A stretch of 64,000 bases of DNA, from the NCBI GenBank assembly GCA_031213475.1, contig JARUPZ010000025.1, forward strand, positions 5,281,676-5,345,675, read 5' to 3'. Positions within the stretch are counted from its first letter, which is position 1. The number at the start of each line of letters is the position of its first letter. The notes beneath the pieces were generated by a model. The model was not told where the DNA came from and did not search any database. It saw only the letters and a list, made by a program, of their open reading frames with translations. The DNA comes from Nereocystis luetkeana (lineage: Eukaryota > Sar > Phaeophyceae > Laminariales > Laminariaceae). The translations under genes and the position numbers were made by a program. Positions 1-62,890 of the stretch are shown piece by piece.

Positions 1-3000
1 TGCCAGCGCGCTGACCCAGCGGACTGAATGGGCGGAAACCGAGTTTGCAGCATCGGTAGGCACGCTCCACGAAAACAATGGAGACCTGTCATCCGCCGCC
101 ACGTTCCACAAGTCGCTGCCGTACGACAGCCTCGGACAGGTGCAACAGAAAGAGAAGATTATTGATTTACCACTTTCGACTCGAACGCTTCATGCTGTTT
201 TTTTTTGTTTTTTTTGTTCTCACATTAACTCACAATTCAATGCAGTCCGTGGTCGCAGGACAGGCTCCAATAACTCTGGAGTGGAAGAAATACCTCAAGT
301 AAAAACAGAGGCAAAAAAAAAAACAAAAAACAGGCATACGCACTCCACCACTGCGGACACCAGGGAAGCAAAAAGGAGACTATTAATAGCAGACAAAAAC
401 CTAAAAAAAGAAGAGGAAGCTAAGCAAAACAAAAACAAAAACAAAACTAAAACAGACGCAGATAGCAAAACGCGAAAAAAAGGCAAGGCAAAACGGACCA
501 TACTAACAAAGACACAAAGAGGTACAAACGGGAATGAAAGAAAAATGAAAACAAAGAAGGGACAAAAAAGCGATAATCACGGGCGGGGGGGAAAGAAAAT
601 ACCAAAGGCAGGCACTGGAGCATACAGACACGCAAAGTTGCCCAGATGGCACCATGCTAGTTACTTGGGTCCCAAAGAAAGGAGTGCCTCATGACGATGA
701 TGGCCATAACCAGGCTTCAGTCTGTTGGGCAGACCGCCTCCCCTCCCCCCCCCCGCCATTCCCCCTCGTCCCCCTTTCGCCCCCCCCCTCTTCCCTGTCA
801 TTCTGCACACTCGCGTTGGCGTCAACGGCTGTGGTCGTGGTCGCAGCTATTCTATGCCGTTCTGCCGATGCCTCCTTCTCATCTGTATGCCATTTCCGCA
901 TGAAGGCCTCCGCCCCTTCCTCGACCCGTTGGAACCATCTGCCGGCTTTCTGTGCTGTCTCGCGCCACCCTTCGAGCTTGATGCCGAACTCCTTGAGGTC
1001 CTCCTCAAGGTACCTCATCCAGTCCCACTCCTGTCCTCCGGAGTAACCCTTTCCCCCAACCATCTCCCCAAACATCACCCTCCTCGGCAGACGCTCCTCT
1101 CCCATTCGTGTCACTAAGCCCGCAAACAAGAGCCTACGTCTGCGTACCGTCGTCTCAACGCTTTCAGATGTTGTCCTGAGAAGCGCGCTAGCATAGGATA
1201 GAATGTGGTCTTCGCGCTTTCGTTTTCGCCACCCGATGCATCGGAGGAGCATCTTGTGGTGGACCTCCCGTAGCCTACCGTAATCAGTCTTGCTCGGGCT
1301 CCAAGTAACGCAACCGTAGAGCAACGTTTCGATCACCTCGGCTCTCAGCATTCGCACCTTCAGGCGTAGGCGCACACCCGGGCGGTCATAAATTTCCATC
1401 TTATACCGTCCGAAGCATGCCCATGCCCTCTGGAGTCGACGCGTTACCTCGACACTTCTGCCCGTCCAATCTGCGCTGATAGCCCCGCCCAGATACACAA
1501 ACTCGGTCGTTTGTTTGTACACTTGGCCGGCGGCGGTGATGGTGAACGGCACGTTCCCCCCATCTTTCGTTCGCAGACACATTATCTCCGTCTTGGCCTC
1601 CGAGACCGTCAGGCCGAAAACGGCACATGCAGACACGATCACCGTCATCATCCTCTCCAGGCCGTTGGGTGATCTCGATACTATGCCTGCATCGTCGGCA
1701 TAGAGCATAGCCCACAGTGTCTGGGCCTCTTTATCATTCCCCTGTCCGTCGGCGTGCCCGACCCGTGCCTTCCCCCTCTTCTTTTTCTTCTTCTCCTGCT
1801 TTTGTTGGAGTTGCACCAAGCTGTCCGTGATGGCTTTATCAGCAGCGAAACGTTTCTCCGCCACACGCAGCACCGCTGTAAAAAACATGTTGAACAACAA
1901 TGGCGCGAGCACACACCCTTGCCGTAGGCCCTGTTTCACGTCGAACATATCTGAGCACTCGCCGTCATCCAGCCGCACGCATGCTCGCATGCCGTCGTGG
2001 AATTGGCGGATAACGGTGAGCATTCTAGGTGGCACCCCAAAGCGAGCCAAGACAGCCCACAGGAGGGTTCGGTCGACGGAGTCGTAGGCTTTGGTGAGGT
2101 CGACAAAGCACATGAAGAGCGGAGTGTCCTTCTTCCTTGCCAATTCCTGCAAGCGTCGCACCACGAACATCATGTCGACCGTCGATCGTTCGGGCCTAAA
2201 GCCACACTGCTCCTCCGGCAGGATGCCTTCACGTTCGCAATAGTCGCTGAGTCGGCGCGCGATGACTTTGAGGAGCACTTTGCCGGCATGCGCGACTAGG
2301 GAAATGCCACGATAGTTACCACACTCCGTCCTGTCTTTCTTCTTGTGCAGCACCTTAATCGTTGCATCCTTCCATTGCTGCGGCACGACCCCTCCCCTCC
2401 ACACAGCGACGATAATCTCGTAGAAGCTTCCCAAGGTGTCCGAGTCTCCCTCGTCGGCCAGGACCTTCAGAAGTTCAGCTGGGAGACCATCAGGCCCAAC
2501 CGCCTTGCGGTTCGCCATCGCCCTGATCGCGTCTTCCACCTCGTATCTAGACGGGACGTCGTCCAGCGGACTGCACGAGGGCCAGACCTTGAGCTCATCG
2601 ACGATAGTCGGATCGAGGGTCGATGACCTTGTGTTTAGCAGCTTATGGAACCACCTTACCCATCGTTCCCGGATGAGGCCTACGTCTCGTAGTAATCTAC
2701 CTTCCTCGTCCCTGATGTACTGCGAATGGAAAGTCCTCTTTCCTTCCACATTCATCCCCTTAAGGTGCTTGTAGAACCCAAACTGATCACCTTCTTGGAT
2801 ACGCCTTTCGAGTTGACGGACGTATTCCTCGAAGAACTTCTGCACTCCGTCCGTCCTCGCACGTTTGAGCTGTTTAGTGGCAATCTTCACAGCTTTTCGC
2901 AGATTTTTGTCTTCCGGGTTAGCACGTAGTTGCGTCCTCGCATTTTCCTTCTCCTGCCATCGTGAGTGCACCTCTGCTTTTACCTCTTCGGGCGTACACC

Positions 3001-6000
3001 AGCCCAGCGGCCCTTGTTTTCGACTGGTATGAGGTGCTAGTTTAGCAGCAGTCGACAGCACGGTCTCCACTAGAGCAGTTGCCTTATCATCGACACTCCC
3101 AATTGTACCAGGCGGTGGGGGGGTAAGTTTGGTTATCTCCCTATTGAGGTCCGCTCGGAGACCGGGGTCTGCCATCAACCGTTGTAGATTAATAGCTCGT
3201 TTTCCGCTGCCTGCTTTTACCCTCCGATTCGGCGCGAACCGACCCAAGAGGTGAATATTGCAGACCACGAGGTTGTGGTCAGATTCATGCCGATCCTCTG
3301 GGGGTTTCCGTACTGTCATGTTGCGGACCAGGCGTCGATCAACTTGCCGAGTAAGGATGTAGTCTAGCCTACACTGACCCTTCCCGGAGTTTGGAGACTG
3401 GAAAGTGTACGACACTCCGCGAGTAGGTGTGGCAAAGAACGTGTTGAGGAGCGCAAGCCTGTTGTCATCTGCAAGGAGGAGTAGTCGCTCTCCGTTGTTG
3501 TTCAATTCATCGCGCCCGTATTTACCCATCACCTTACTGCCGGCACATCCGCTCTCTCGCTTGCCGGTGCGAGCATTTGCATCCAAGAGTACAAGTAGGT
3601 GATCCCCACTTGGGACCCCCGAGACGACTTTGTTCAGTTCGTTCCAGATTTGATCTTTCTCGCGAACGGGTGCATCCAGTATCGGCGCATAGCCGACAAC
3701 AAAAGAAACAGCATTTGATTTGCCCTCAAGTTGAATGCGAACTTTCATCAGTCTGGCACTAACGCACTCCACCTCGAGACCATCCTTGCCCACACCTGCC
3801 ACAATAGACTCCCTGACAGCTAGTCCTACACCATGGGTGCCCTTCCTCTCGTATTTGCTGCCGTCTGCTCCCGAGCAAAAAATCGTGTATCCAGCTGCTG
3901 TGAACGTGCTATGCCCGTCTCGCCTAGTCTCTTGGAGACCTACGACATCGCATCCTAGTTCCTGGCATACCTTCATGATGACCTCGCTGTGGCCGATGCC
4001 ATTTTTGCCGTTGAAGGCGAGTGTGCGAACATTGAACGTACCCACGACGAGTTTCCCAGCTCTGTACCTAGCCCTAGCATCTGAGCGTAACCTTCGAGCT
4101 TCTCTGCGACCTTTCCGACCTTGCCTCCTCTTCTTCCGTGCAGCGTGTTTTTTCTCCTCTACCCTCCGCTTTTCCCAGGCGGTGGGTTTCTTCCGTTCCG
4201 TGTTTTTTCGCCCGGCCCGGTTCGTGCCGAGGTTCCGACGTGCTGGGGGCAGCAATCCCAACGCGCCTCGACGACCATCATCTCCTAGATGACGTCGAAT
4301 GGGGTGCTTACTCACGTGGATCCTAGCCTCTCTTCTCCGTTCGCTACGAGTTCCACGCTTTCCGCGACGGTGATACGACACGGCTACCGCAGGCAATACT
4401 GCCGCGTGGAAAAAATCCGCGAGAAAATTTTCCGCCATATCGCTGGCCATCACCGCCGGCTCGACCATGCTCGAACGCTAGTTAGACGCGCAAGCAAGGT
4501 CAAGGCCGCGCTCCACTGGGAGCTCTAGCACGTGTTGGGGAAGCCGCAGGCCGGAGCTCCACCCCGGCTGGGGAGCAGCCGAGGGAGGAATCTAGTATGT
4601 CAGAGAGTCGTTGCCGTTGTTTATACTGTTTTAGAGTAAGGAAAGCACGCCAGTTTGTTCGGGTGGCACCCTCGACAGAGTAATGGTGCATGCTGGTTAC
4701 TACTGCTGTATAAGAGGTATTCTCCAAAGGCCAAGGGAAGGGCCAAGGGAAGAGGGAACAGCGGAATACTACAATATGAGGGGGTCATAAGTTCGGCCAG
4801 AAGCATGTTGACTGACGGGCCCACTCGAGCGATGGAATTACGGACAGTTCGTTCGATCATATCTGTGTTTTACTATTCAATACGCCGCCGAACCCTACAA
4901 TAGTCATTAACAATGTTCATTGTGCTGCCTGCGAATTTATGATGGGGTACAGAGTTGTAAAGTGTGTTTGTCCTAGACTATGTAGGTGACGTGGTTTTTA
5001 CACTGACAGTTAATTTTTTCCTTGGAAACGGCATCCACCCGCATGAAACGGTGTAAGCGTATACCCCACTCGACGACATAGTAGCGATTTCCAATATCTA
5101 ACGTCGCCAGTGACCCACTCTAGGCTGAACACAACAACCACCTTTCTGAAATGTCGTATAGTATATGGCCAATAGCAACCTTGGCAATCAAGACTTTGCG
5201 TTCGGATGGCCCAACGATTTACCCAGATGTTTCGTGCCAAAGGTAATGTGTGCACCAGTTTATGGCTATTTTTCTCTGGCATTTGTATGATACCTACTAA
5301 CCCTTGTGTTCGGTTCCTCACGCGTGGTGTGCCATTTGAATGCTGCTTCGTTCATCCTTGCGATATTCCAGGTCGACAGCGAGGCCTTTGACGCTCTTAT
5401 CGAGTGCGTCGCCGAAGGAGATTTTGACACGTGCGAGCAGGTGCCGGCCGGAGACGACGACGGCTTCCTAGTCAACCCCCTCGGGGGTATCGCAGTAGAC
5501 ATGGCAGGAGCTTCCGGGTACGTAAATGCTCTGCAACTTGGAGTATTTTGACCATCGTCCATCATTCTAAAGGCGTTGTTGGCAAGCTTTTTGCCGATCT
5601 GTGAATCAAGACACGGCTGAAAGATGAGGAAAATCGCTGACGCTGTGCTCAGCAGTATCAAACTCGGTCAGGACGCCATAAGCAAACACGTATAGACGCC
5701 AACAATTTAAAATGTCGAGAGTGACTATACCGATCGCAAGATCCGACCACGGTCGACCACGAGTGTAGTATTTCAGCGACAGCAATCCTTGTTCCGATAG
5801 CCAACGTTCGGCATGAAATATATGACGCACACTGTATCGATCCCAGCGGGTTTGCCGTTGATCGAGTGGCCCATGGATGTATACAACTCGGCCCCTAGAT
5901 GTATTGTCAGCGGCATAGTATTATATGACGACAATGCTCAACATATACCGGCTACCACACCGTTCGACCGTCTTACTGACACCCTGGTTCGCGTCATTCC

Positions 6001-9000
6001 CCCTCGTCTGTCGTCCGTCCCGCACCCCGCTGGCCCCTTCGCTGGTATTTCCCCGGGTCCATTACACCCGTCCGTATGTCAAACAATATACCGTGGACAA
6101 CTCTCACCCTCGCCATCGGCTCCACCCCGTGCTCAACGGTGACTGCGATGTTCGTGTCGGCACCCTACGGTTGTATGCTATATCATATTTGCTTCGGTTT
6201 CGTCATCGGCACTGCGTTCATCGCTGTTCGGGAACTGCGGGTGTTCCCCACAGCCCCGCCTTAACCATACCAAGCGCTTCACTGCTCAACTCTGAGGACC
6301 TGGTAAGCCGCGGTCGTTCCTGGAGTTAGAGGGCGTTGCTGTTTGATGAAGAGGTCATGTAGCGAAACGTTGCGTTTGGCACCCGAACAGGAGTCCGCCG
6401 TTGATTTACCTTGTCGATACTGTTGTTGGTCGACATAAAGCCTTGCCAACTTTGTTTCGTCCGTCCCGCACGAGAGTGTTCCACGTGCGTTCGGTCCGAT
6501 GACATCTAAGACGCTCCTCAACCGGATCGAACGCGTTGTATCCATAACACGTCAGGCTGCTCAAATGGCTGAACTGTACTGGATGGCCCTGACGAGGGAC
6601 GTACCCTTCTCCCAATACGGTGAAGACCGCGCAACTGTGGAGGCAGCAGGTAATACGCATCTATTCATCTATTTAGGTTGCAGCTTGTAGCAGAATACTA
6701 CGTCCGTGTATGTAGACATGACGTTACCTGCAGGGAGAGTTCACTTCATTCTCTTTGCTATGAGAGATGGCATCGCAGATGCAGTGTGCTCGATAATGGG
6801 CTGAGACCAAAAGATGCCTCGATATTTCCAAGGCGATGCTTATTGTGAGTGGGTTGTACTTTATTGTACAAATATAATAAGTTACATTTAGTTTCACAAA
6901 AGTACCATTTTCAGCATATATATCCCATTTGGAACAGATTCGTATCCCAGCCATTGCTGCACTGCGCGGGTGTGAAATCTATATATATCGGCACGCATAG
7001 AAGGAATCTGTATAGTGTGTGTTTGTTGTGGGGGGTGCTATTGGCAATGCCACATTCCCTCGTGAGTGTGGGTAGGCGCAATATACACTAAGCTACATAA
7101 TCCTAACTTACTGTTCTCATGATGTCCGCTGCTGCCCGTTCGTTCTGAACGTTGGATAATTGACAGACAACTTGGCCACCATGCCGGGTTTCGCCGACAT
7201 GAATATGGTGGCCGTCGGGCCGGATGGCAGAGCCGACCCACAGACACAGCTCTTCCGGTCGTCAGCGCTCGGAGTCGAGACAGGACCCTTCGTTTCCCAG
7301 GTGCTGTATGCCATCGGACTTGGAGTCTGCAATTGTTCAAGCCTCCGTTACCGAGTTCGCCTGCTGTCGTTGATTTGCCTTTCTATGCCTTGTTAATATT
7401 TTGTATCAAGACATCGGTTCGCCGTTGGAGAGTATTTGACGTTAATGATGGCAGCGTGAAAAAAAGCAAAGCTTACTTCCATGCCCACATGTATGCCGGT
7501 ACACCGTTGGTTGCGTTTTCAGTGATTTCGGCTTGGCGATGCGGTAGAATATTTACTGTTCGCCTGGGATGAATCGTTTCAAATTTGACGTACAATTTTA
7601 AGGATGTCTTTGACACGTAGAGGGTGTACCCTACTAATCTACCCCGTTCCTCGATGCTATGGTCGCTTCCCGCCGATTGGCCTCAACCAGCTTCTGGTGA
7701 AGGACTTCACCATCGACTCCATCACGGTCAAAGCTCAGCTGACGACATTCGCACCTGGAGTAGACTACATGGCCGATTACGACGAATGGCTCTTCATACA
7801 GGTTAGCCTATCCGTCAAATTACGTCGACCGTGAAACGACGCGTTCGCCACGAACCACGCGCGTGAGAGCTGGTGAACGCTAGCCGTTTCATAGATTATT
7901 CTGGTCAGCTCTTTGTACAGTACTCCATCGCTGGTACATAGATTTTCCAACAATGACGTCGTGCACCCCGTGGGATGGTACTTGATAGAGCCCATACATT
8001 TATCTCTAGAACGGATTTTTATTGCTGTTCGGATCCTATGACACTACAACAGCAAGAACGAAAAGGCGCGCAACCGCAATGCGATCTTCGATATTCTTGT
8101 TGTCTGAAAAGCAGGGAAAATTGAACAACTGCTTACTCAACCGCACTGCAAGCACGAACATGCCCACTGAAGTACCGATCGAACGCTGAGAGCTTTAATT
8201 TCACACGATCATGGCAATTGAAATGGCAGGTTCTATACCGCTCACGTGCTTGTTTGAACCACTCAATGCAGCGGGGCGATGATCATATGCGAAGTCACAC
8301 GATGCCTTTTTTCGTCATAACCTCCAACTCATGCTCGATTCGTTTGCAGAACGGTGGCAAACCTGACTCGCCGGAGGAGGTAGACCCCGTGAAGCGGTAC
8401 ATCAGAAGCGCCCGCGACCTTGCGACCACGTCAGCTACCGATACCATCAACACGTGAGAATACCGTACTTTGTTCGCGCGGCATGTCCTACTAGTAAATT
8501 TGAAGCCTTAAGATTCACTACCTGGCAACCGCTATTTTATCCGCCGCGAGAGTCTGAAACGTCAACCCTTGATTGCACCTGCCCACCGACGATGATATGA
8601 AATCATGCCAACGCCCGCAAGCTATTTTGTGTCACCAAGGTGCACGTGATCTCATATATAATAGAGCACATATTTCAAAGCAGACGAAATGCATCTGTGT
8701 TGAGTCAGTATTCACGTTCAACCATCTGACGACCAACCGTTACTGTGTGCAGGGAGGCTTACCGAGCTGCACTGATTCTTATCGAAGAAGGAGCCATCAG
8801 CCGTCCTGGTTTCAACGGTCCGTACACAGAAAACGGCCGCCAGGTCGGTTTCGTCAACTACGGCACCTCCCACATTATGAGGCTTGTCGGAACCGGCGAA
8901 CTGGCTCAGAGGGCCTCGTGGTACCAGAAGTGGAACGTGCACTTGTTTGCCCGTCCGGAGGTGAGGCGTCATTGCGTCGGCAATAGTCGCTGAAAAACAC

Positions 9001-11946
9001 GATCGGCGTTGGGAGGAACACAAATATATAATTGGTGGGGGTCTTGTATAGCCTCATCTAGAACGTGAAGCTTAGATACATTGTACAGTACTCCTCACGA
9101 ACCATCCCCCAGCCGAGGTATATCTTGAGGACGAGATGTAACTATGTCTTGCTATCTCAACAGGGTTGGGTAAACCCCCAGTCGACGACCACGCCGGTCT
9201 GACTAGAGTGGCCAGGATATGCTTTTCGTTGTTATAGCGCGCCTAACGACGCTCGAAACAAGATCCATCATCATTCCGTTGCCGACCAAAACAAAATGAT
9301 GTCCTAATCCGCGCTGTCTTCCAGGCACAACGGCCTCTTGACGATATGATTGAAAATTAAAAGCCGTCTGTCCGAGTGTGATGTATGCTGTCGCAAAGAT
9401 TGCATGGTGGCTAACTCCACCATCGAAAACACCTGCCCCCTTTCACCTCGTCAAATCGTATCTGTTGGGTTGTGGGACATGACAGGCCGTCGGTGGAACG
9501 CTCCACAATGTCCTAAACGGCGACCTCGATGTAGAATTCCCCGACTCGCTTCTCAACAACAGGCGGTTGCTGAGGCGCGTGGCGCGACGCAACAGGCAAA
9601 CCACCGGGCAGCGACGCAGGCGCCCGCGCACTTTTCTTCTCCCCCAGGTGAACTTCATATACGACTTGCATAGGTTGTAACAAAACAAACTTAATTCTGA
9701 ACCGTAAGACGCGATAGTTTATCCACTGGAAAAGCGATCTCTAGGTCCCAGACGATTATGCAATCTACCGAGGTTTAATGCGATTGAAACTTCATCTGAT
9801 ATTGCTTGGGTCGACATCGCATTTCAGGCGTATTGCCTGTCTTTCTTGGCATCTCAAACTTCATGCGACAAGGGCTTGACTCATGTCTCAACATTTCAAG
9901 ATATCAACGATATATTACCTGCACAATATACACGATCCGTCACGTATCCGCAGGGTTCAACCGGGCTCGAACCCTGCTTAAAAAATTACGTTTGCGAGGG
10001 CAAAGATGAATTCTGCGTTAAACAATTGCAATCTGTCGATTTTTTGTCTTCGACGAGACAATAGACGACGTCAAACGTGCACATTTATACGTCGATTGAG
10101 CAGACCATTAGACGGGAAGCTAGCGCAGTCTCCGTTAGTTAATGTGTTCCACTCTGGATAACACTGCCGTGGGTTCGCTTCGTTTTCACAGGCTGTTAAC
10201 GAGGGGTCGCCAACTCACCCTTCTTACCCCTCTGGGCACGCTGTCCAGAACGGCGCCTTCGCCACTGTGCTCAAGGTGAGTCACTGCTGTCCCGTCTACC
10301 ACACGTGTTCCGATAACAGCGAAACAGCGATGGTTGTATGTGAATCACTGTTGGGAAAGGACGAAGCAGCAGGGATAACAGGTCCAAATAACCCACGGAA
10401 CTGGAGTCAACGTATGGTTTTAGTTGCTGGCTTTCTGTCGCATACTCCGATATTGTTTCAAGTCTGGGCGCCCGGTCATTTTATTCACGCCATGAATTGC
10501 CTCTCATCGCTGATTTGTTGTTTCAAATTATCGTTAGTCATGTAACTGATCTACCGTCTCCCTTAGGCAGAGCCGTCGAGAAACACTCAATGATCACATT
10601 GGTCGCATCGGAAACGTCGTACGAACAGTAGCGTCATAATATCACTGCCTGACCGAATGCTAACCAGCCAGCAGTTAGTTGATGTCGGTATCACATCTCG
10701 GTCGTCGGCTGAAAAATGTTTGATAGCGCACTAACAAACGAAATGCATTCATCGTTGTCCGCACACCAGTGTTTAATATGGCACATGCATACTAAATAGT
10801 ATGTGTTGTGGTTGAGATCGCGGCGGACCTGTAATCACAGTGCGACGTCAAACGTTCGAGATTTTCACGTGGTGTCCTGTTTACGTCGTCATTAAAACAC
10901 CGCGGAATCGTCCCAAACCTGCAAATGTTTGCTCGTTGTGATTCCAAATCATACCCTCGTGCCTTCTCTGTTTCTCCGGTCGGGGTTAAGCAAGGCATAG
11001 TGATGCGAAAGAGAAACCAGCACTGCTGATCCACTCAGCGCCATTGGAAGACTGCAGAACGTTTTCATTTTGAAGATTATGTTTGTTACATCTGCCTCAA
11101 CCCGTCACCTTGTACCACAGGCACTTGTCGGACTGGAGCGTGGCGCTTCGTGCTTCAGCAACCCCGTTGTCCCGGACGATGAAGGGTTGACCCTTCTGCC
11201 CTACACTGGCGACGAATGCCTGACGTACGAGGGAGAGATCAACAAATTGGCCGTCAACGTCGCATTCGGCAGGTAAATAGAGAGTAAGGGACTTTGTTGG
11301 GAGCGATTGGAACCACCGATCATACCCGCCCGTACTACCACGTCTATTTGGCGTCTTTCTCTAGTCAAATATTTCGTATTTCGTGCGTGGCATAGTGCCC
11401 AATGAATCGAACCAACCGTAACGAGCGTTGCCCTTGTTCTGCTTGCTGTGCTGGGGAATGAAGGCAGATGATGGGTATTCACTGGAGGATGGACGGTCAA
11501 GAAGGATTACTCCTCGGCGAGATGGCCGGTGTCCGTATCCTGCAGCAGGTGAGAGACCGCACGCACCTAAGACGCCTACTTACGAATAAAAGGTTACATT
11601 TTACCTTACATAGGTACAGCGAAGGGCATGAACAAAAGTGCTACTGCGCTGGCGTACATTGCCGCTGCTGCTGCTAGCTTCTGCTCCTCCTGGACTGTGT
11701 TACCGTTGCTCTTGTTGGGCATGCTGCTCATGTACTACTTTTGATTGGTAAGTGTGATCAACTGATCATTGTTCCTTGCGTATCCCGTATTATCGATTGC
11801 AGGAGGCCGTGGCATTCCCAGAGAACGAGCCCTACGAGTTCCGCCTGATGTCCGGCCAGACGATCCGACTAGAAACCGACGGGTCTTTCTTCGTCGACAA
11901 CCAGAGGTGCAGCGGTGACGCGTTCATGGGCGCTGACCTGTGCTAA
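1..11946 (+). CDS. Vanadium-dependent haloperoxidase (bromoperoxidase type), gene A, 5'-partial, 13 exons visible
   Basis: Secreted enzyme family that uses vanadate and H2O2 to oxidise bromide or iodide. Exons by GT-AG sites and by agreement with two paralogues here: <1-139, 5372-5517, 6254-6302, 6556-6649, 7167-7300, 7691-7801, 8350-8453, 8753-8960, 9486-9647, 10192-10275, 11121-11272, 11464-11548, 11803-11946 (TAA). Together they give about 536 residues; exon 1 lies left of the window. Seen in order: FHKSLPYDSLGQ (exon 2), the vanadate motif KWNVHLFARP (exon 9), SPTHPSYPSGHAVQNGAF with the PSGH catalytic histidine (exon 11), and AFGRQMMGIHWRMDG with the vanadate-binding Arg and the His ligand (exons 12-13). 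Cysteines in exons 3, 12 and 14 fit the disulphide pattern of secreted algal enzymes. Intron 2 carries an antisense LINE. No stops occur within the visible exons. The Br or I preference cannot be told from sequence. Confidence 0.93.
199..4621 (-). mobile_element. Full-length LINE (non-LTR retrotransposon) inserted antisense in intron 2 of gene A
   Basis: Intron 2 of gene A reads like intron 2 of gene B up to position 198 and resumes at about 4622; the material between is absent from B and C. On the minus strand it has a short 5' leader (4469-4621), one long open reading frame, and a roughly 490-base 3' UTR that is T-rich on that strand. It ends in an A-rich tail (the T-run at 199-216 on the plus strand), as expected for target-primed reverse transcription. 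No clear target-site duplication was found. The single APE-RT reading frame resembles RTE-like elements, but the clade is not certain. The uninterrupted frame suggests a recent insertion, after A and B split. Confidence 0.93.
689..4468 (-). CDS. LINE endonuclease-reverse transcriptase polyprotein (1259 aa, intact)
   Basis: Protein that nicks target DNA and copies the element RNA into the site. Residues 1-139 are strongly basic (many Arg and Lys) and may bind nucleic acid. Residues 140-410 are an APE-type endonuclease: GTFNVRTL, the LQETR glutamate near 180, LLDAN near 297, RLDYI near 369 and SDH at 396-398. Residues 640-1000 are the reverse transcriptase: GPDGLPAELL, GNYRGISL, CGFRPERST, the FVDLTKAYDSVDR aspartate near 790, KQGLRQGCVLAPLLFN and the YADD box at 923-926. 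A lysine-rich insert (about 889-902) sits just before YADD. The C-terminal part carries a LLYGCVTW-type segment and an RLLFAGLVTRMG-type segment usual in this group. The start is the first in-frame ATG after the 5' boundary. All visible catalytic residues are present. No separate ORF1 is seen. Confidence 0.95.
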   Translation of the reverse strand: MVEPAVMASDMAENFLADFFHAAVLPAVAVSYHRRGKRGTRSERRREARIHVSKHPIRRHLGDDGRRGALGLLPPARRNLGTNRAGRKNTERKKPTAWEKRRVEEKKHAARKKRRQGRKGRREARRLRSDARARYRAGKLVVGTFNVRTLAFNGKNGIGHSEVIMKVCQELGCDVVGLQETRRDGHSTFTAAGYTIFCSGADGSKYERKGTHGVGLAVRESIVAGVGKDGLEVECVSARLMKVRIQLEGKSNAVSFVVGYAPILDAPVREKDQIWNELNKVVSGVPSGDHLLVLLDANARTGKRESGCAGSKVMGKYGRDELNNNGERLLLLADDNRLALLNTFFATPTRGVSYTFQSPNSGKGQCRLDYILTRQVDRRLVRNMTVRKPPEDRHESDHNLVVCNIHLLGRFAPNRRVKAGSGKRAINLQRLMADPGLRADLNREITKLTPPPPGTIGSVDDKATALVETVLSTAAKLAPHTSRKQGPLGWCTPEEVKAEVHSRWQEKENARTQLRANPEDKNLRKAVKIATKQLKRARTDGVQKFFEEYVRQLERRIQEGDQFGFYKHLKGMNVEGKRTFHSQYIRDEEGRLLRDVGLIRERWVRWFHKLLNTRSSTLDPTIVDELKVWPSCSPLDDVPSRYEVEDAIRAMANRKAVGPDGLPAELLKVLADEGDSDTLGSFYEIIVAVWRGGVVPQQWKDATIKVLHKKKDRTECGNYRGISLVAHAGKVLLKVIARRLSDYCEREGILPEEQCGFRPERSTVDMMFVVRRLQELARKKDTPLFMCFVDLTKAYDSVDRTLLWAVLARFGVPPRMLTVIRQFHDGMRACVRLDDGECSDMFDVKQGLRQGCVLAPLLFNMFFTAVLRVAEKRFAADKAITDSLVQLQQKQEKKKKKRGKARVGHADGQGNDKEAQTLWAMLYADDAGIVSRSPNGLERMMTVIVSACAVFGLTVSEAKTEIMCLRTKDGGNVPFTITAAGQVYKQTTEFVYLGGAISADWTGRSVEVTRRLQRAWACFGRYKMEIYDRPGVRLRLKVRMLRAEVIETLLYGCVTWSPSKTDYGRLREVHHKMLLRCIGWRKRKREDHILSYASALLRTTSESVETTVRRRRLLFAGLVTRMGEERLPRRVMFGEMVGGKGYSGGQEWDWMRYLEEDLKEFGIKLEGWRETAQKAGRWFQRVEEGAEAFMRKWHTDEKEASAERHRIAATTTTAVDANASVQNDREEGGGERGTRGNGGGGEGRRSAQQTEAWLWPSSS

Positions 11947-14795: not shown

Positions 14796-14806
14796 GTAAA
14801 GCATAC

Positions 14807-21072: not shown

Positions 21073-21320
21073 ATGAAGGGGCTTGCGGGATCCGCCGGCG
21101 CTGTGGCCGTCATCGCCTTCGGTGTTTTCTCTGGAGCAAGCGCAGACTCGTCGGTGCAAGAAGTCGCTGAATACGGGTCAACTGGCAGTGTAGATGATGC
21201 AGCATCGCCACCGACGCCTTGAACGAGAGCCTTTCAGGACGTCTTCAAGCGAGTGGACGCCGCGGACGCCCCCGTCCTCGTCCCCCCGTGACCGATGACG
21301 CTCTTGACCCCACTGGAACC
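21073..21320 (+). other. Exon 1 of gene B: signal peptide region with a frameshift
   Basis: ATG at 21073 is chosen because it matches the start of gene C; an in-frame ATG at 21022 would add 17 residues. A hydrophobic core ending GASA predicts secretion, with cleavage after residue 24. The frame then stops at 21220. The remainder (GRLQASGRRGRPRP, DDALDPTGT, donor gtgagt at 21321) continues in another frame and matches gene C, so one indel has occurred in the low-complexity proline/arginine stretch. Confidence 0.75.
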
Positions 21321-36660: not shown

Positions 36661-36899
36661 ATCGAAATGCATCGCGGCGAATAATCCCATCGGTCGGTCG
36701 GTTTATCGGTCAACCTCGAAGTAGTTGCAAAATAATATCCAAAGAGAGACAAAAAAAGCATTATATTCTGCTAATCGTAGGCAGCACGACGGCCCTCAGC
36801 CTGGTTTCCGCCAGGTGCAAGTATGTATGTGTAAGGCACTGCATCGATCGCGTTGTGATGAACTGCTTTGAAAATATATATCCCTCGGCACGATGCTGC

Positions 36900-39392: not shown

Positions 39393-39401
39393 GTATATAT
39401 A

Positions 39402-39442
<41 letters not shown>
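39393..39442. repeat. TA microsatellite
   Basis: Long TA run of about 40 bases preceded by an imperfect part. Confidence 0.92.
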
Positions 39443-39446
<4 letters not shown>

Positions 39447-40320: not shown

Positions 40321-41140
40321 ATATGTCATACGATGACACCATGCATTTACTTAGAATGTTTCGGGCGTCTAGCCGCTAAGAAGACACTGGGGTTTCCGTT
40401 GTGCGCTCCTGGGCGTCGATATTGTAGACGGGAGCATTCGTGGAAAAAGTGATGCGTTGTGCATTGTTTCCGTGCTGCCAGGTACTTTATGGTACTTACG
40501 TTACTTCAGCAACGTAAACCAGTGGAGTAAATAAATACTGGTAGAATCGATGCACAGAAAGAGATAGGTCGAGGTTTCCGTCGAAACTGCTGTTTGCGAG
40601 CTGTGTGTGATACGTCGATTGCGCGTACTACCAGTGTACATGTTTTGTGCACAGCCTCCTGCAGGATATATTCACACCCCGTACATGAAAAAGACTACAC
40701 CTGAAGCTTCAGAATCCAAGAAGGGTTTTGTGTCTGTCCATCTACGTGTCGTAAGAGTAAATACATACCAAAACATTTTCGGAGATTGCACACAGGTTGA
40801 CACGAGTGATGGGAGGTACGTTTCGTAGTGCATCTCGTAGAATAACGTGGTATCTGATATTATTGCTGTATTATAACCACAGAATTGTCTTCATATTTTT
40901 AGTATCATCAGTTACACAGCAGTAGACCCGCTGGCTGCGTGTTCGATCAAGTAGGCGGAAGATTGGATTTTTTTGTTGACTAAATATCAGGTACCTGGTA
41001 TATAATAATTCGATTATTCGATAGCTGAGAGCGAATAGCGCTCGTTCCAACAGCGTCATCCACATCTACACAGGGATCCAGAATTGAAACAGCAGTGCGT
41101 AGAAGGGCTGGCGCATGTAAATGACATAAATATATACCAG

Positions 41141-49524: not shown

Positions 49525-49773
49525 ATGAAGGGGCTTGCAGGATCCGCCGGTGCTGTGGTCGTCATCGCCTTCGGCGTGTTCTCCGGAGCAAGCGCGGAAT
49601 ATTTGGGACAAGAGCCCGCTGATCACGGGTCAACTGTCGGTGTAGATGATGCAGGGTCTCCATCGATGAATGCTGTACACGACACTCCTTCGCGTCGTCT
49701 TCAAGCTAGTGGACGCCGCCGACGCCCACCCCCCCCGGTCGTGAACGATGATGCTCTTGATCCCACTGGCACC
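49525..49773 (+). other. Exon 1 of gene C: signal peptide and Arg/Pro-rich linker
   Basis: Encodes 83 residues in phase 0. MKGLAGSAGAVVVIAFGVFS is a typical secretory signal with cleavage expected after GASA (residue 24). Then comes an acidic stretch, then SRRLQASGRRRRPPPPVV, a dibasic/tetrabasic, proline-rich linker that may be cut during maturation, then DDALDPTGT and the donor gtgagt at 49774. Confidence 0.85.
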
Positions 49774-52700: not shown

Positions 52701-55700
52701 TCTAATAATTAACTATGGTCCCCCGTAAACGTAGCTTTACTAAGGGGTAATATAGCAAAGTGTTGCGGTTTTCGCCCGAGAAGGAGAGCTCCTGTGGTGT
52801 ACCCCGCTAATATTGTTGATGCTATTAGGTCGACGTAGCGCCTTGTCAAATTCCTTCCGTCGGTTTCGCACTACCGTGTTCCACGTGCGTTGAATTGGGC
52901 GACATCTGAGATGCTCATGAACCGGATCCCACGCGTTGTAACCATGCCACCCCAGGCAGCACAAATGGCTGAACTGTACTGGATGGCCTTGACGAGAGAC
53001 GTACCTTTCTCCCAATACGGTGTAGACGACGCAACGGTGGAGGCAGCAGGTAATACGCACATGTTCGCCGAATGGAGCTGCAGGTTGTGGCAAGGTGCCA
53101 CTTCCGCGTACGTAGAGACGACTCCCCGTGGGTAGATGTTGCGCCTAGATTGCTCTGCTCTGAGATATATCGTTAAAGGCGCGGTGTATTGGATAATGAG
53201 TTGAGACAAAGCGATCCCTCTGCATTTCCAAGGCCGCTGTGTTTGTGATCGGTGGGTTCTACTAAATATTACACACATATGCTCACATTCAACTTTACAC
53301 AAGTAAGTGGCTCATTCAGCCTATAACCGATTTTTGACAGCTTCGTATCCCAGCCAGTGCTGCACTGCACGGGTGTGAGATCTATTTGTCTGCACGCGTA
53401 GAAGGTGCAATGGGCACGACCACATTTTTTCACGAGCGTTGGTAGGCGCAATATTCACTAAACAACAGAATCTTATCACACTGTTCCCGTGATTTGCACT
53501 ACTGCCTCGACGATCTGACCGTTGGACCTATCGACAGACAACTTGGCCACCATGCCGGGTTTCGCCGATATGAATATGGTGGCCGTCGGGCCGGACGGCA
53601 GAGCCGACCCACAGACGCAGCTCTTCCGGTCGTCAGCGCTAGGAGTTGAGACAGGACCCTTCGTTTCCCAGGTGCCGTATGCCATCGGATATGGAGTCTG
53701 CCTTTGTTCAAGCCTCAGCCACCGAGTTCGCCTGCTTTCGTTGTTTGTACTTTCCATGCATTCTTAGTATTTGCTGTTTTTCACGCCGGTTCACCGTTGT
53801 AGAGCACTTGACGTGGATGACGGCAACAGCATTAGGGTAAATCATTAAAAAATGCCCACGTAGATGCCCGCACACCGCTGGTTGTGTTGGCATTGCCTTG
53901 TATTTGGCGATGTGATATCATAATTTGATGTCCGCTAGATGGGTCGTTTCTGTTCGACGTTTATTAGCAGGGGTGTCGTTGACGCGTGGAGAGTGCACCC
54001 TTCTGATCTACCCCGTTCATTGTTGTTATGGTCGTCTTCCGCTGTTTGGCCTAAACCAGCTACTTGTGAAAGACTTCACCATCGACTCCATCACCGCCAA
54101 AGCTCAGCTGACGACGTTCGCACCGGGCGTGGACTACATGGCCGATTACGACGAATGGCTCTTCATTCAGGTTAGCGAAATTATCACAATACGTCGACCG
54201 TAATTGTAAAGACGCGTGCGCCATTGACTACCGTGGAATCTGGTTAAGGAGTGAATATTCGTTTCTGCGGAGGGCCTGCTCGACGGACAATATTCCGGCC
54301 CTGGATTAAAACATACACCAAGAATGACTCCATGCACCTTGTTTGTTGATACTTTCTGTCAAGCACCGAGTTGTGCCGAAAGTGTTGTTTTTTACGTCTG
54401 CTTAGCCACCGGCGCTGCAAACATATTCATGCCCAATCGAGTACAGATTGAATGCCGACAGATAGCGAATAACAGAACCAATTAAATTGAGATTGAACAT
54501 TGTATTCCGCTCACGTGTTAATTGCATTTGATCGTCGCGAATGCTGTCCGGCGATGAAATGAATACTTAGGGTATACTTTCTCGACATAACATCCCGCGT
54601 TTTCTCTGCTTTTTACAATATTTCAGAATGGTGGCAAACCTGAATTGCCGGAGGAGGTCGACCCCGTGAAACGGTACATCCGAAGCGCCCGGGATCTTGC
54701 GACCACGTCAGCTACCGATACCATCAACACGTAAGTATGCCGTACTTGGTTCATGCGGCGCGTCCAACATTAGCAAATGTAGACCTACCGTCAACTGTGT
54801 CGCAACTGCCCTTTCAGATGTCGCGACACTCACAAATTTCAACCCCTGATTGCACCAGTCCGCCGACAATTTTTCGAACTTTGCTAACGCCCATTTGCGA
54901 TTGCGGTTCATAAATGTGCATGTGATCCCACGCTTTTTCCAGTAAGTAGACTAACGTTGCAAAGCTTTATGTGCCTTGAAACAGTGTTCACGTCTAACCA
55001 TTGGACGACTAAACGCTACCCTTTGCAGGGAGGCGTACCGTGCCGCTCTGATTCTCATCGAAGAAGGAGCCATCAGCCGTCCGGGTTTCAACGGTCCGTA
55101 CACAGAAAGCGGCCGCCAGGTCGGTTTCGTCAACTATGGCGTATCCCACATTATGAGGCTTGTCGGAACCGGGGAGCTGGCCCAGAGGGCCTCGTGGTAC
55201 CAGAAATGGAACGTGCACTTGTTTGCCCGTCCGGAGGTAAGGCTCCACTACGTAGGCAACAGTGGCTAAACATATCGATCGACGTAGGGGAAAAAACTGC
55301 TATGGGGTAGAACCGTAGTGTTTCAGGGGGTATTTTATTGACTCACCCGAAACGTGATTTTGAGGAAACATAAGAGCTTAACCTCACGAACCATCCGGTA
55401 GCAAAGGGGTATCTTGGAAACGAATGTAGATAAATATCAATATTTCAGCAGTACTGAGCAAATCCCAAGGAGACAAACCCCGTCGGTCTGACATTGTTCA
55501 GCCTGAATATGCTAGCTGTGTCGTCGCTCACGGGTAAATACCCGTCATGATCTTGTCGCCGACCAAACGAATATTTCGTCCGAATGCACACTGTCTTCCA
55601 GACACACGGTCTGTCGACAACATAATTGTACGCTTGAACATGTCTGTCCGAGTGTGATGTATCCTGGCGCGAAGAAATCGTGGTAGCTCACTCTGTTCTG

Positions 55701-58443
55701 CGAAAAACCTGCTCCTTCCCTTCCCGTCTTGTCGTATGTGTTGGGTTCTGGGACTTGACAGGCCGTTGGCGGAACCCTCCACAATGTCCTAAACGGCGAC
55801 CTCGACGTAGAATTCCCCGACTCGCTTCTCAACAACAGGCGATTGTTGAGGAGGGTGGCACGACGCAACAGGGAGATCACCGGACAGAGACGGAGGCGCC
55901 CGCGCACCTTCCTTCTCCCCCAGGTGATTTCCGATCACGATCTGCATAAGCCGCATTTAAACTCGGGCTGAAATGGCCCGAGTACACATCGTATTTCCGT
56001 GGAATTGTTCGTTGTTTGTAATATGTGGTAAACAATCGACACACGCTCGACTCATGTCTCAAATGGTCCGAGACCCAAACGTCCAGACTTGGTCGTATTA
56101 TCCAATCGGGCACTAACCTTGCCCGAAGAGTGCTACTTCGTGCAAGTGACCGACTCTTCGCAAATACCGTGAACTAAACTGCAGTATACTGAAATGTTAG
56201 CCTTCGATGAGATGATAGACGGCGTGAAACAAAAACATCCAAAAGTCGATTATGCAGACCTCTCGATTGAATAGTAGCACAGGTTGAGTTCGTTGATGTG
56301 CTCCACGTTGTTGACCATCACCGGCGGTTTTATTTGTTTTCACAGGCTGTTAACGAAGGGTCGCCAACTCACCCTTCTTACCCCTCCGGGCACGCTGTCC
56401 AGAACGGCGCTTTCGCAACTGTGCTCAAGGTCAGTCACTATTCCCCCGCCCACTGCAAGTTGTTCGTTCAAAGCAATGAGACAGTGGTGAATATATCTGT
56501 ATGCCTGATGGGAGTTGACGCAGCAGATGGTATAGAAGCTCCATCCGAACCGCAGAACGGGAATTACTATTGACATATTTGGCCCTAGGTTAGACTACGA
56601 TTTATCTATGGGCTATCGGCTGTAATAGTTTTGCCATGTATTGCCATTTATTGATGTTTAGTGTTTCCTTTTTCGTTTGGGATGGGACACCTTTATGGTT
56701 TCCTCCAGGAGGTTTGGGCCAAACCGTCGACATAAACGCAAATATCACATCGGCCGAATCGGTACACAACGCACGCATAGCCGCCTGATACCTTCATCAG
56801 TCAGTACTAACCAGCCACATGTTGCTAAAAAAATCTGATCTCGGTCAATCACTACCAACCAAATGGGTGTTGAAAAGTTTCAGCTAACGTAATGCATATA
56901 TCGTTTTCAGTTCAGGAGTATATAATATGGCGCATACACATGAACTACCTTGCGTTGTAGTCGAGATCGTATTGGAACTTCATTCTTTGTACGACGTAAG
57001 AAAGAACTGCGTGGCATTCAAGTGATCAGCCTGTGTAGTCGGCGAGTTACGTCGTCGTCGAGACACCGCGGCGTCGTCTAATGTCTACAACCGCTTGGGT
57101 GTTTCGATGCACCAACCCCTTCGAAGACAAGCAATGGTGTTGGTGTTTCTATACTAGTGCACCTCCTTCCCTCGCCTCTTCACTATTCAGCCCGAGGCTT
57201 AACAAGCAGGAAACGGTGAAGCGAGGGAGAGATTACCCCAGCTGCTCCGCTCAGCGCCCTTAGAAAAGAGTAGTATGTTTTCATTTCGACTTTGTTCTCG
57301 TGCTTTCTGCTATATATTGCCCCCATGTCCGGCAGGCTCTTGTTGGACTAGAGCGTGGCGCTTCGTGCTTCAGCAACCCCGTGGTCCCTGACGATGAAGG
57401 GTTGACCCTTCTGCCTTACACCGGCGACGAATGCCTGACGTACGAGGGAGAGATCAACAAATTGGCCGTCAACGTCGCATTCGGAAGGTACGGGGCGTGT
57501 GGGGGAGTTGAGTCCGAGCATTTCCAAAACACCGACCATACCCGTTCGAACTTCTGCGTTTTCTCCACGGTTTTCCATCGATAATTATTTCGTAGTTCGT
57601 TCGTGACTATAAATAATCGTACGGACGTTGCCTTTTGTCTGCTTGCTGTGCTCTAATATGCAGGCAGATGATGGGTATTCACTGGAGGATGGACGGTCAA
57701 GAAGGGTCACTGCTCGGAGAGGTGGCCGGTGTACGAATTCTGCAGCAGGTGAGAGACCGCACGCACCCAAGACGTCTACTTGTGGGGAAATAGAGACTAT
57801 ATACCTTACATATGTGCAGCGATTTGCACATATGTCATACTGTGCTGGTGTACGTTACCGCTGGTTTTGCTAGGTGCTGCAATTTCTAGACTACTGGACC
57901 GTTGCTGTCGTGGGTCATGCTCTGCGTAGGTTATCTTTTTATTATTATCCAAGAATCCGTTTGGCATCATTCGAACCCAAGTATATTCGGAGCTTTAGAT
58001 AATTGTTGACGAAAGCTGGTATTTACCATCAAACTGACAGGCGGCAAATTCACCGAGACATCACCCACTATGCCTTCGTACGCCATGGAATGGGGGACGA
58101 CTGTGAACGGTGACACAGTGAAGATCAGAACGTAGAGGTTGATCATGTTGTTCTCCTACGTCGTTATCGCACGATGTGTGCTGTTCCTAGGTAAATCTAT
58201 ACAAATTCATCAAAACGCGATCGACATTCAAACCATACAGATAGATGTTGGTGATATCATAATTGTCCTTTCTTGTGCGTTTCGTGCGTACGTTCGCAGG
58301 AGGCCGTGGCATTCCCAGAAAACGAGCCGTACGAGTTCCGTCTCATGTCAGGCCAGACGATCAGACTCGAAACCGATGGGTCTTTCTTCGTCGACAACCA
58401 GCGGTGCAGCGGGGAGGCGTTCATGGGGGCTGACCTGTGCTAA
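49525..58443 (+). CDS. Vanadium-dependent haloperoxidase (bromoperoxidase type), gene C, 14 exons
   Basis: Most complete copy; 624 residues with canonical exon limits. Exons: 49525-49773, 50285-50437, 51727-51872, 52539-52587, 52956-53049, 53538-53671, 54060-54170, 54627-54730, 55029-55236, 55762-55923, 56346-56429, 57336-57487, 57664-57748, 58300-58443 (TAA). Signal peptide 1-24; Arg/Pro-rich linker 54-75; catalytic domain from about 100. Vanadate site: K406 and R414 (KWNVHLFARP), S484-G485-H486 (PSGH), R549 and H555 (FGRQMMGIHWRMDG); H479 lies in PTHPSYPSGH. The length fits the Ascophyllum enzyme (about 557 mature residues) plus leader and linker. Odd: the exon 3 acceptor reads CG instead of AG; an in-frame AG at 51650-51651 would add 25 codons. 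Exons are close to A and B while introns differ, which argues for selection on the protein. Confidence 0.92.
50817..51077 (-). CDS. Hypothetical 86-aa frame in extra DNA inside intron 2 of gene C
   Basis: Genes A and B lack about 280 bases that gene C has here, and a single ATG-to-stop frame fills nearly all of it. The product reads like protein (IPKFGKSWRYVSIYGGVLP; FVQFSETQTIEFVDFTESE; a basic KSSKRKNRMYENLF tail) and its codons are more AT-rich than the haloperoxidase exons. No family is recognised. It could be a fragment of an inserted foreign or mobile gene, or a chance frame. Confidence 0.3.
   Translation of the reverse strand: MAEPHSYMRAFLSLIPKFGKSWRYVSIYGGVLPLFVQFSETQTIEFVDFTESENTTRNICKIEKSSKRKNRMYENLFEIGGEKTLR
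52625..52726. mobile_element. MITE copy 4 in intron 4 of gene C
   Basis: Left end acaggggaccacagacaata, right end taactatggtcccccgt. It starts 38 bases after the exon 4 donor; intron 4 of A and B is 253 bases and that of C is 368, so the MITE accounts for nearly all of the difference. Confidence 0.78.
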
Positions 58444-61309
58444 CCTGTCCAACGCGGGTCAACGTATACTGTACCACTCAGGAGGACGGTGCCAAACGTC
58501 TGGCCTGGCCCAACCCTACCGGCTGTGTCGACGGAATCTCCACGGTTTACAAGTAGGACATTTGTCAACTGTAGGGAGTCGATCTCTCTTCGTGATAAGT
58601 TGTGTAGTGTTCAGCGACAGACCTGTAACGCAAGGTGTGGGAGCGTTAGTCGTCGTGTCTCTATAACTTTGTCGGAACTGTAACGTTATGTGTGATATTA
58701 CTATACCCCCCTCGTGGGAAGACGAACGATATACGTGATTAGCTGGCGGCTGCATCACACGCTCTGCCTCTAACACGTGGTGGACGTCCACGGCGGGTCC
58801 GTCCTAAAAGAAATATTGTAGGTTTTGATTCGAAAACCACCCGCGTGAACCTTCATCTCTAAGGTATGTGACGAGGACGGTGGCACTTCGTGTTTTGATA
58901 AGTGTAACAGCCATTTGTACTAGTCATTGCGGTAGGTTTGCCTCAATTGTTTGATAAAACGACGCGAGGCTCAGGCACGCCTCTTCGACGTTTTGAATGT
59001 GCGGCCTTTCGTTCGATTGCCGCACTTGCATGGGGCAGTGTTACACTGCTGAAGCGCGCATGTGTTTCAAGTGAACGCCCTCTTTGAACCGTTGGAGTAG
59101 TTCGTTATAGATAAGTTGTTTTCCGTAGACCAAGCCCTGGGTGTATGACGTCCTTAATGCTCAATGTTTCTCTGAACATACAGGTTGTCTACTACGGGGA
59201 TCAGATTGCTGGACAAGTACACTGACGTTTGATTTGGTCTGTTTGTTCCAGCAACTCCAGCAGTACTCGCCAATGTCTCAACCATTGTATATTTGTCGGC
59301 GAAGCTATAGTGGGGGGATATACATATAGACTTCTCTATGCACACTACGAGTGGCTGCGTGGTTTGCCTCAAGTACAAGTTAAGTCTTGAATTCACATGT
59401 GTGTACAGTGCGCTGATCATGGCATACCCAAGCGTTTTCGAAAGAGTACGGCCGAACGGCCCCGGCGACCTTTTTATTGCCACGGACATGAACTTTCCTA
59501 GATGGTCACGCTTGAGGCGTGTGCAAATCGACATGCCGCGTCTGTGTAAACCCACGACCTCCTCATGTAAATACTGATGGGCCATCGAAGTTCCCATTCG
59601 CACTAGTCTAGTGGTATTGACGCTGCATTGAACATATTACATATCCGGCCGATAATACGTGCCACACAGGATTGCCCGCGCAGAGGTCTGCCTCAGAAAT
59701 TGCAGGAAAGTATGGGAGGTCGCACGTGTGACCGATGCAAGGGATATTGATCGAATTGACCACTCCGTCACTTGCGTGAAAAGTGAAAAACTTGGTCGCG
59801 TTCGGTACAAGCTACACACTGGTTGAGTTAGATTCACTCGCGTGATTGGGCCAACACGGATAAGCTTGGTTTGGCGGTGTGGACCGTTGTAGTGTCTGAC
59901 CAAAGTGTCTGGAACGTGAGTGGTTCCGAGAATTACATTGACGTTGGTTTTCTCCTCCTGCTTATCACGGTTAATATCATTGAAAAGGAAATTGACAAGG
60001 TATGGTGAGGGTCCTTTGCTGAATTATTACGGGGGGGCAGAGTAAATATGATCAAATATTGATAGTAAACCTAGCGAAATATACTGTGTTTAGTGTTTAA
60101 CGTAGGTTCTATTCAGTATGGCTACCCGTAAGAGTATACCCCATACGTTAGGCACTGTGTCCATATTGTTGTCAACAACTAGGTTCATATTTTCAAACAC
60201 ATCTCGAATTGAAGTAATACCAAGCACTATGTGGGCAATTGTTCCGCTTTTGTAAGGACAGGGTCAACTCGTACACCCGAGTACAGGAATTTGTGATCCG
60301 ATAGTATTGATTTGGAAACAAATAAACGCATGAAATGTTCGCCGGAGCAGGAAACTATTTTTTTTGTGTTTTTTAGTAATGCGCAACGTCACTGGTTTTC
60401 CATACCGCACAGGTCATGTATTCCTACTTGCACAAAAAAATCCTTCTGAAAGCCGACGGGAAATTCTGGCACATGCAGTCGTCGGTTGAGCGCTCAGAGA
60501 CCAAACACCTATCTTCCGTCCAGGTCCTGGCCTAAATTGCATGCAACCGACACGATGAAATTGTCGTGTTATATTCGTTTCAAAATCCATCCCAGAGGAG
60601 CGCGCAACTTTGTCCTATATTCGCATCGCCACCGCAACGCATGCTTCGTTAGAAGTAGCCGTTTTCGGACAAATAATTTAGGACTGCCGTGTCTCCACCA
60701 CTCCAGAAAAGTATTACCCAACATCGTCCAAACATTGCTTGCGATATAGTGTTCTTAGTTTTGTGCCTCGGCTTCAGGGATGAACCTTCGTGGTACGTTT
60801 ATTTTTAGCTTGCGCATCGTCGCCCGCCACACATCGAACTGCATCGATTTGGCTGCTTCCCACGGCCCATTCACGTATCCCTCGGATCTAGAGGTACTCG
60901 CCACTCCTACCCACGACAACGGCGACCGTGTTCCCGGCAACCGCCCCTCTACCCGCCAGCATCCGCTGATATCTGCGACAGCGACGGGATCGCTCACGGT
61001 GCCGTGCTCCAAGTACGCGTACTCACACGAAAAGAATCACCGAAAGACAAAACGAATGAAAGCGCCAACCGAAACGGAGAAAACAAAAAAAACGCTGGGA
61101 AGGTCCGGCAAGAAATAAAGGGAGGCGAGTTTCCAAGTGGGAGCTATGAGAGGTCAAGAATGTACCAAACGAGTACTTTCAGAGAGTGGAATATATGAAA
61201 GTTGTTATATTCCTATGGGCCCAACGTGCGAAGACGAACGCTGTACTTGGTTAACAGGCGGATGCATCGCCGTCGGCCTCGAACACGCCGTTGACGTCCA
61301 AGGCGGGTC
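58444..61309 (+). repeat. Downstream spacer of gene C, first part
   Basis: Ordered matches to the spacers of A and B: the gtccaac-cgggtc block after the stop, the cctctaacacg block (58769; also 12277), the gattttgtctg-type block (59235; also 30252), tacacccgagtaca (60271) and ccgacgggaaattctgg (60453). A MITE is inserted at 60029-60129. No gene is supported; frames here are not kept in the other copies. Confidence 0.65.
60029..60129. mobile_element. MITE copy 5
   Basis: Left end ACGGGGGGGCAGAGTAAATA, right end TATTCAGTATGGCTACCCGT; more diverged than copy 3. Flanked by TTA/TAA. Confidence 0.65.
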
Positions 61310-62890
61310 AGTGACTCTGTGGGGTATCAGTAACAACCATAAGTCCCGGCGATAAACAAATGACCGTCTCTGTGTCGCTTGATGGCGGCACTGGTGTACG
61401 GACTATTGAGGTACCGTGGGTTCGGAATCGGCATGGTCTTGACCCTTCCACGGTGATGGCCCCTAGCTCATACACTGTATATAGGCGTCTCGTAAGGTGC
61501 AACCTCTCTACACCGTGTAAAAACAAACATTCAAAGCTGTCTGAGAAACGAACTATACAGCGTTATGACAGGAATTGTTGCACGCCAGCCTAAACAGTGG
61601 GTTGCATGCGTCGACTTAACAAAATCATTTTCAAAGCGAGTACGGTATGTATATGTATACACCACGACGGGTTTGGTGTATAAGGACGGTTAGGTGGACG
61701 CCAATAAGCAAACCAATTTTTATCAGGAGGATACAGTATCGATCGGAATGGACCCGCGGGACGCAACACATGGTTTGGCCAAGCGTGTACAGATCTCTGT
61801 CCGTCTCCTAAATATGTGTTGGTCACACCTTTTTTCACCCTGCACACCCTGTCGATCCAAGCCTCAAAAAGTGCGCTTGAAATTGACAGGGCGAGTTAGA
61901 CTGCGTTCGTTTGGGTGTGGCGCGTCAAGCCGAAAAGCGTAGAAAGAGGACCAGCCTGGTTCTATCACAAACGCATCACGCACTGCTGCAGAACAGCCGA
62001 TAGTGTGAACGCCAGGTGCTCTCCTCTGCATGTTTCTATTTCATTTCAGCCGCGTTTACAGTACGCACCATACACACGGCCTGTGCTCGCTTCCGTCATT
62101 CGTCATTCAGTTGCCTCCGTGTATCATTAATGTGAATCCGAAAAATTAAATCAGAGTAGGATGTTTACTTTTTTATACCATGTTACCTGGTAGGTTTTTC
62201 CAGGGGTCGAGCCGCAAAGCGGACACTGGGGTCTCAGGTTTGTGCTTCCGGGCGTCGATATCGTACTGGTGAACATTCGTAGGAAAAGCAACATGTCAAT
62301 CATTGTTGCCGTACTGCCAGGTTTTTTACGATACTGACGTCATTTCAGGAAGACAAACTGGAATCAGGTACACTACCACAGTAGTTTTTGGTATGCATAT
62401 AAAAGACGTGAGATTGAGGATTCGTCCGAACTCGTCGAGCAAGCTGTGTATCGTGCTTCAGTCGCACGTACTGCGGGTGTGTTTGGACTCATCATGCAGG
62501 ATATACAGCCCGCATCAGAAGAAGACAAAATATGAACCTCCAGAACTCAGAGAGCATCTATCTGTGTCTGCGTGTTTTGAGTAAATATGTAGAAACTTGC
62601 GTATAACAATATATTTCCGAGATTTCAGATAGGTAGACAGGAGTGAGAGGGGAACTTTTCCTGTGTGTATTTCATACCTGGTATTACTACATGATATATA
62701 CATGTGACCATTTGCATTTTTTTTTTACCAATTACTGGTACACAGTAGTATATCCGCTGGTTGCGGGTTCGATCAGTTTTAGTGATCTAATATCGGTGTA
62801 TATATCCTCCTTGTGAACTGTATGTAAACATATGATTCGACATCATCTGGCAGTGAATAACGCTTGTTCCGAGTAGGGTGTGTGCCTCCT
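61310..62890 (+). repeat. Spacer block S, copy 4 (after gene C)
   Basis: Landmarks: actctgtggggtatcagtaac (61313), tccacggtgatggc, acaccgtgtaaaa, tgtgttggtcacacc (61815), gcgcgtca (61920), gtgaacattcgta (62269), and the ctggttgcgggttcgatc block (62756). It ends at about 62890, which I take as the right edge of the tandem unit. No gene. Confidence 0.65.

Follow-up and report, generated by a model that had tools for sequence, protein, structure and literature searches.

A tandem vanadium bromoperoxidase array in Nereocystis luetkeana with a probable history of patchy gene conversion

RESULTS

The array and its gene models

The window, by which we mean the whole 64,000-nucleotide stretch of DNA analyzed here, comes from Nereocystis luetkeana (GenBank assembly GCA_031213475.1, contig JARUPZ010000025.1, positions 5,281,676 to 5,345,675, forward strand). 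Comparison of the window with itself, combined with gene models anchored on splice sites, reveals three collinear 14-exon vanadium bromoperoxidase (VBPO) gene bodies, designated A, B, and C; the exon ends of A were carried over from B through the A/B alignment. The homologous units run head to tail and extend through the spacers, making the locus a tandem array with the spacer as part of the repeated unit, as a sequence-only reading of this DNA had proposed. Genes and flanks are laid out as follows.

2..11946, plus strand: VBPO copy A, exons 2 (partial) to 14, spliced model; exon 1 lies before the window start
11947..14800, plus strand: 3' spacer of A; its homologue in unit B is 29442-32270, with 11-24% divergence past 12243
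19154..21072, plus strand: 5' flank of B, 62-68% homologous, in pieces, to C 46046-49524
21073..29441, plus strand: VBPO copy B, 14 exons, 13 of 13 introns GT-AG
29442..34909, plus strand: 3' spacer of B; weak similarity to C runs on to 35246
49525..58443, plus strand: VBPO copy C, 14 exons, 12 of 13 introns GT-AG
58444..62775, plus strand: 3' spacer of C, from the self-comparison

The spliced model of copy A has one terminal stop, and its 12 visible introns are all GT-AG; the product of copy C is 624 amino acids long, provided that intron 2 is spliced at its ancestral place. Exons 3 to 14 have the same length in all three copies (12 of 12); B and C have an exon 2 of 153 nt, that of A being cut by the window edge. 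The common intron positions and phases that had been claimed are found for introns 2 to 13 in A, B, and C and for intron 1 in B and C. The same six introns that had been singled out as equal in length between A and B emerge from our models, namely, introns 4 (253 nt), 8 (299), 9 (525), 10 (544), 12 (191), and 13 (254), while the other six visible in both copies (2, 3, 5, 6, 7, and 11) are unequal.

A second gene within the unit was considered and rejected, as eight spacer or flank open reading frames (ORFs) of 157 to 219 codons, drawn from 58 ORFs, matched no Pfam family at an E value of ≤0.01. No three-base rhythm of mismatches is apparent by eye in seven alignments of spacer or 5' flank, whereas two exon controls show one. 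Searches for RNA genes gave no Rfam match at gathering score and, in a bacterial-code scan, no tRNA. Between units A and B, the segment 14801-19153 holds three minus-strand ORFs of 159 to 219 codons with no Pfam match, and all that recurs from it within the window is a SINE-like repeat, a TA run, and an inverted match (16971-17049 to 20123-20198, 72%). One stretch of the 3' spacer, short and unusually well kept (78-82%), lies at 12226-12307, 29722-29803, 58691-58802, and 61203-61312; it occurs twice in unit C.

Identity of the encoded enzyme

Residues 74 to 624 of the copy C protein match chain residues 6 to 555 of PDB entry 1qi9, which we take to be VBPO1 of Ascophyllum nodosum, at 682 bits (E = 5.4e-204), a full-length resemblance to an algal VBPO of known structure, with the first 73 residues of C outside the match. 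The 1qi9 match by itself would point to a brown alga as host. Next come 5aa6 (425 bits), presumably, with 1qi9, one of the two Ascophyllum enzymes, and then eight more distinct sequences (144-190 bits). All of these are named bromoperoxidase or haloperoxidase; 1qhb and 1up8 we take to be red-algal enzymes. The Pfam PAP2 match reaches 24.8 bits, under its cut-off of 27.2. Prokaryotic relatives at six loci, found in one scan with 33-38% identity, are too distant to bear on the array.

The vanadate ligands of 1qi9, K341, R349, S416, G417, H418, R480, and H486, have counterparts kept at seven of seven positions in A, B, and C, in keeping with the earlier claim that the three genes have these ligands in common. 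Likewise conserved in all copies are the counterparts of W338 and H411, two residues presumed to lie near the active site. The array differs from 1qi9 in having several tandem copies. By this homology, the array genes are vanadium-dependent bromoperoxidases of the algal type, with halide oxidation as the predicted activity. The product would be secreted, judging by eye from a signal-like N terminus, and the predicted enzyme would use bound vanadate and H2O2 to oxidize a halide, presumably bromide or iodide.

A LINE in copy A and other repeats

Intron 2 of copy A carries a long retrotransposon in antisense orientation.

199..4621, minus strand: LINE, 4.4 kb, absent from the B site

Right of this element, the offset from A to B is 17.4-17.5 kb; at exon 2, with the LINE included, it is 21.9 kb. 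An ORF of 1262 codons, stop to stop, occupies 689-4477; it matches LINE-1 ORF2 protein chains and contains both an endonuclease (3275-4039, Pfam Exo_endo_phos, 5.2e-09) and a reverse transcriptase (1487-2344, Pfam RVT_1, 7.7e-34). This joining of the two domains in one ORF, along with an A-rich 3' tail, is what the element has in common with LINE-1-type non-LTR retrotransposons. It differs from them in that just 144 bases precede the frame, with no first ORF seen, and in that comparison of the A and B sites reveals no clear target-site duplication. The long open frame and A-rich tail suggest that the LINE is possibly young. A T-rich stretch of 75 bases over its left junction (183-257) has an inverted copy at 48420-48493 (76%).

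A dispersed repeat of ~350 bases is present in three long copies (18163-18509, 39972-40320, and 42892-43236 [minus]) and two short ones (44576-44708 and 44954-45078 [minus]), which are 79-91% alike, and in a distant copy (16490-16731) at 63-67%. Its reverse-strand end is tRNA-like, with a GGTTCGAGCCC box; although no tRNA was called, the repeat is probably a tRNA-derived SINE. An AAT triplet array of 78 copies (96% matches) lies at 44056-44288.

Remnant of a lost copy

Between B and C lie the remains of a further unit, D.

35463..36372, plus strand: further tail fragment directly before the D remnant, matching 33986-34510 and C 61552-62041
36413..36632, plus strand: what is left of the gene in lost copy D, from the terminal part of intron 13 through nucleotide 18 of exon 14; homology then stops
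36864..40949, plus strand: 3' spacer of D, in pieces, collinear with the A, B, and C spacers, with a SINE-like repeat inside

The remnant matches C 58102-58317 at 70.5% and scores 125 bits; when 200 first-order Markov resamplings of 34901-46000 were compared with 49001-62900, the highest score was 34.0 bits, and the lost copy that had been proposed is thereby upheld. Over its 18 exon 14 bases, the remnant agrees fully with A and C and differs once from B; the intron 13 portion matches C, with no match to A or B at an E value of 1e-4. Because a tail segment is repeated at 35463-36372, a second deletion or crossover there is likely.

Lesions in copies B and C

None of the three copies is shown by this window to be a whole, spliceable gene: exon 1 of A falls outside it, exon 1 of B is frameshifted, and C has lost an acceptor. 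Exon 1 of B (21073-21320) has 248 nt compared to 249 in C, with one 4-base and a separate 3-base alignment gap. The frame from its start codon stops after 49 codons, and the frame leading into exon 2 has no ATG in its open stretch within exon 1. The lesion in C lies at the end of intron 2.

51721..51726, plus strand: end of copy C intron 2, reading TTCCCG (TTCCAG in A, TTTCAG in B)

Intron 2 of C thus ends in CCG and lacks the AG acceptor that A and B retain as CAG. The normal exon 2/3 junction is taken to be ancestral in C because the 1qi9 match runs straight through it (GQ|VD). Use of the next downstream AG would shift the frame; splicing at an AG that lies in frame 75 bases upstream would lengthen the protein by 25 residues. 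Copies B and C may be broken, or they may be wrongly assembled; the lesions rest on one assembly.

Selection on the coding sequence

Ka/Ks was computed by the Nei-Gojobori method over 1608 coding bases common to A, B, and C, with exon 1 and five exon 2 codons excluded. The ratio is 0.108 for A/B (Ks, 0.053); the two comparisons with C give 0.055 (A/C; Ks, 0.30) and 0.053 (B/C; Ks, 0.32). Purifying selection is strong in all three pairs, which bears out the suggestion of selection on the protein; the contrary outcome that the sequence-only reading had named, a ratio near 1 in all pairs, was looked for and not found, with values spanning 0.053-0.108. Over 537 positions from exon 2 on (the stop taken as one), A and B differ at 7, A and C at 17, and B and C at 17.

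When changes are polarized by C, 6 synonymous and 3 nonsynonymous ones fall on the A branch (P = 0.008 under neutrality) and 11 and 4, respectively, on the B branch (P = 8e-5 under neutrality), three being left unpolarized; the nonsynonymous share is below the neutral share on each. The result for the B branch implies that B was constrained until lately from exon 2 on, and the selection results as a whole indicate that breakage of B and C, if real, is recent. Loss of function would then be the predicted fate of both copies.

A mosaic of divergence between A and B

Across the full alignment of 10,080 positions, the divergence between A and B is 8.3%, and the differences are far from evenly spread. 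Across the gene body (4622-12242), 16 of 19 400-base windows show 1.0-7.0% divergence, and the other three, around introns 3 and 4 and in intron 11, reach 9.2-14.5%. Beyond 12243, seven windows, the last one short, range from 10.7 to 23.7%. The variance/mean of the differences is 9.9, a value that 0 of 500 site shuffles equaled (coding and noncoding sites shuffled together).

In three-way alignments without exons, A/B divergence is 6.6% in introns (5379 positions) versus 14.9% in the spacer (2211 positions; p = 2e-30), and A/C divergence is 36.9% in introns versus 37.5% in the spacer (p = 0.67), these p values taking sites as independent. The introns of C have drifted, at 37%, with the exons kept, and the older split between A/B and C is supported. 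A recent A/B duplication, read from equal introns, is not borne out in that form: the 3' spacer that A and B share is more than twice as diverged as the introns, and the two compartments are equal in A/C. The contrast is also graded, as the spacer block adjoining the gene (11947-12700) stands at 9.7% and two distal blocks at 17.2 and 17.8%. Divergence differs among the 12 introns (p = 1e-11, sites again treated as independent), with introns 4 (12.6%) and 11 (10.3%) both above the near spacer at 9.7%.

DISCUSSION

The account of the array that we consider probable is an older A/B duplication, later patchy ectopic gene conversion of the gene bodies, and loss of a copy by deletion. Tracts of A and B are more alike than their flanks, and constraint on introns does not explain it, because constraint would lower A/C divergence too, and A/C is not lowered; the graded edge and a possible chimera are counterpoints. 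Conversion would be the cause of the mosaic, with no donor or direction that could be assigned. The equal A/B intron lengths would likewise follow from the proposed homogenization of the gene bodies. We also looked for exchange between C and either A or B and saw no sign of it: across 12 intron blocks, A/C and B/C divergence are never more than 0.016 apart.

Against this account, the intron/spacer contrast is graded, with only the two distal spacer blocks reaching 17-18%, and a crossing-over chimera with an unseen unit could also yield a diverged spacer. Such a chimera, in which a recent copy of B supplied the gene body of A and that other unit its distal spacer, would account for the graded climb in divergence 3'-ward past ~12.2 kb and for the abrupt end of A/B homology at 14800/32270; we nevertheless find it rather unlikely, as diverged islands in the gene flanked by 1-7% stretches require more than one exchange. 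A simple recent duplication of A and B through unequal crossing-over, with a spacer that just evolves faster, is less likely again. It fits the six introns of equal length and an intron divergence (6.6%) near the Ks of 0.053, but spacer and intron are equally far from C (37.5 and 36.9%) yet more than twofold apart between A and B, and islands of 9-15% lie inside the gene. That A and B are alleles, or a duplication made in assembly, is very improbable given 8.3% overall divergence and up to 24% in the spacer, a 4.4-kb LINE in A only, and sequences that differ after 14800 and 32270.

Under the conversion account, the unit duplicated to give the copies would have measured ~17 kb, and the divergence of the spacer would place the A/B duplication some time ago. 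Their gene bodies would then have been homogenized in patches by ectopic gene conversion, and at least one further copy would have been deleted down to the start of its exon 14. Unequal crossing-over is a plausible engine of both gain and loss of copies. B, through the exon 1 frameshift, and perhaps C, through the lost acceptor, would lately have begun to decay, or they carry assembly errors.

Arrays of this kind are already known, as tandem clusters of vBPO and vIPO genes, with recent duplications and transposable elements around them, have been published for Saccharina japonica (PMC4421812, PMC11765636). The present locus resembles those clusters in being a brown-algal tandem vanadium haloperoxidase (vHPO) array accompanied by transposable elements. 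It differs in its mosaic of introns and spacers, its probable gene conversion, and its possibly broken copies, which are not among the features described in the available portions of those reports (PMC4421812, PMC11765636); the words "intron" and "pseudogene" are absent from the main text of the latter. A search of open-access literature returned no paper that treats bromoperoxidase and gene conversion together, and none that links vanadium haloperoxidase to concerted evolution. The contribution of this window is the intron/spacer mosaic, together with the lesions.

Expansion of vHPO genes is held to underlie the accumulation of iodine in kelps, according to the available text of PMC11765636. 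We offer, as a tentative possibility, that patchy conversion maintains the array, with gene bodies and introns repeatedly overwritten from neighbors as spacers drift, so that damage like that in B could be erased or spread and ages drawn from brown-algal vHPO gene trees would be too young. If conversion keeps copies alike, gene trees may overstate the number of "recent tandem duplications," and the tally of vHPO genes may include broken copies. The array offers a concrete test case for these ideas, with the less converted spacer serving as a clock.
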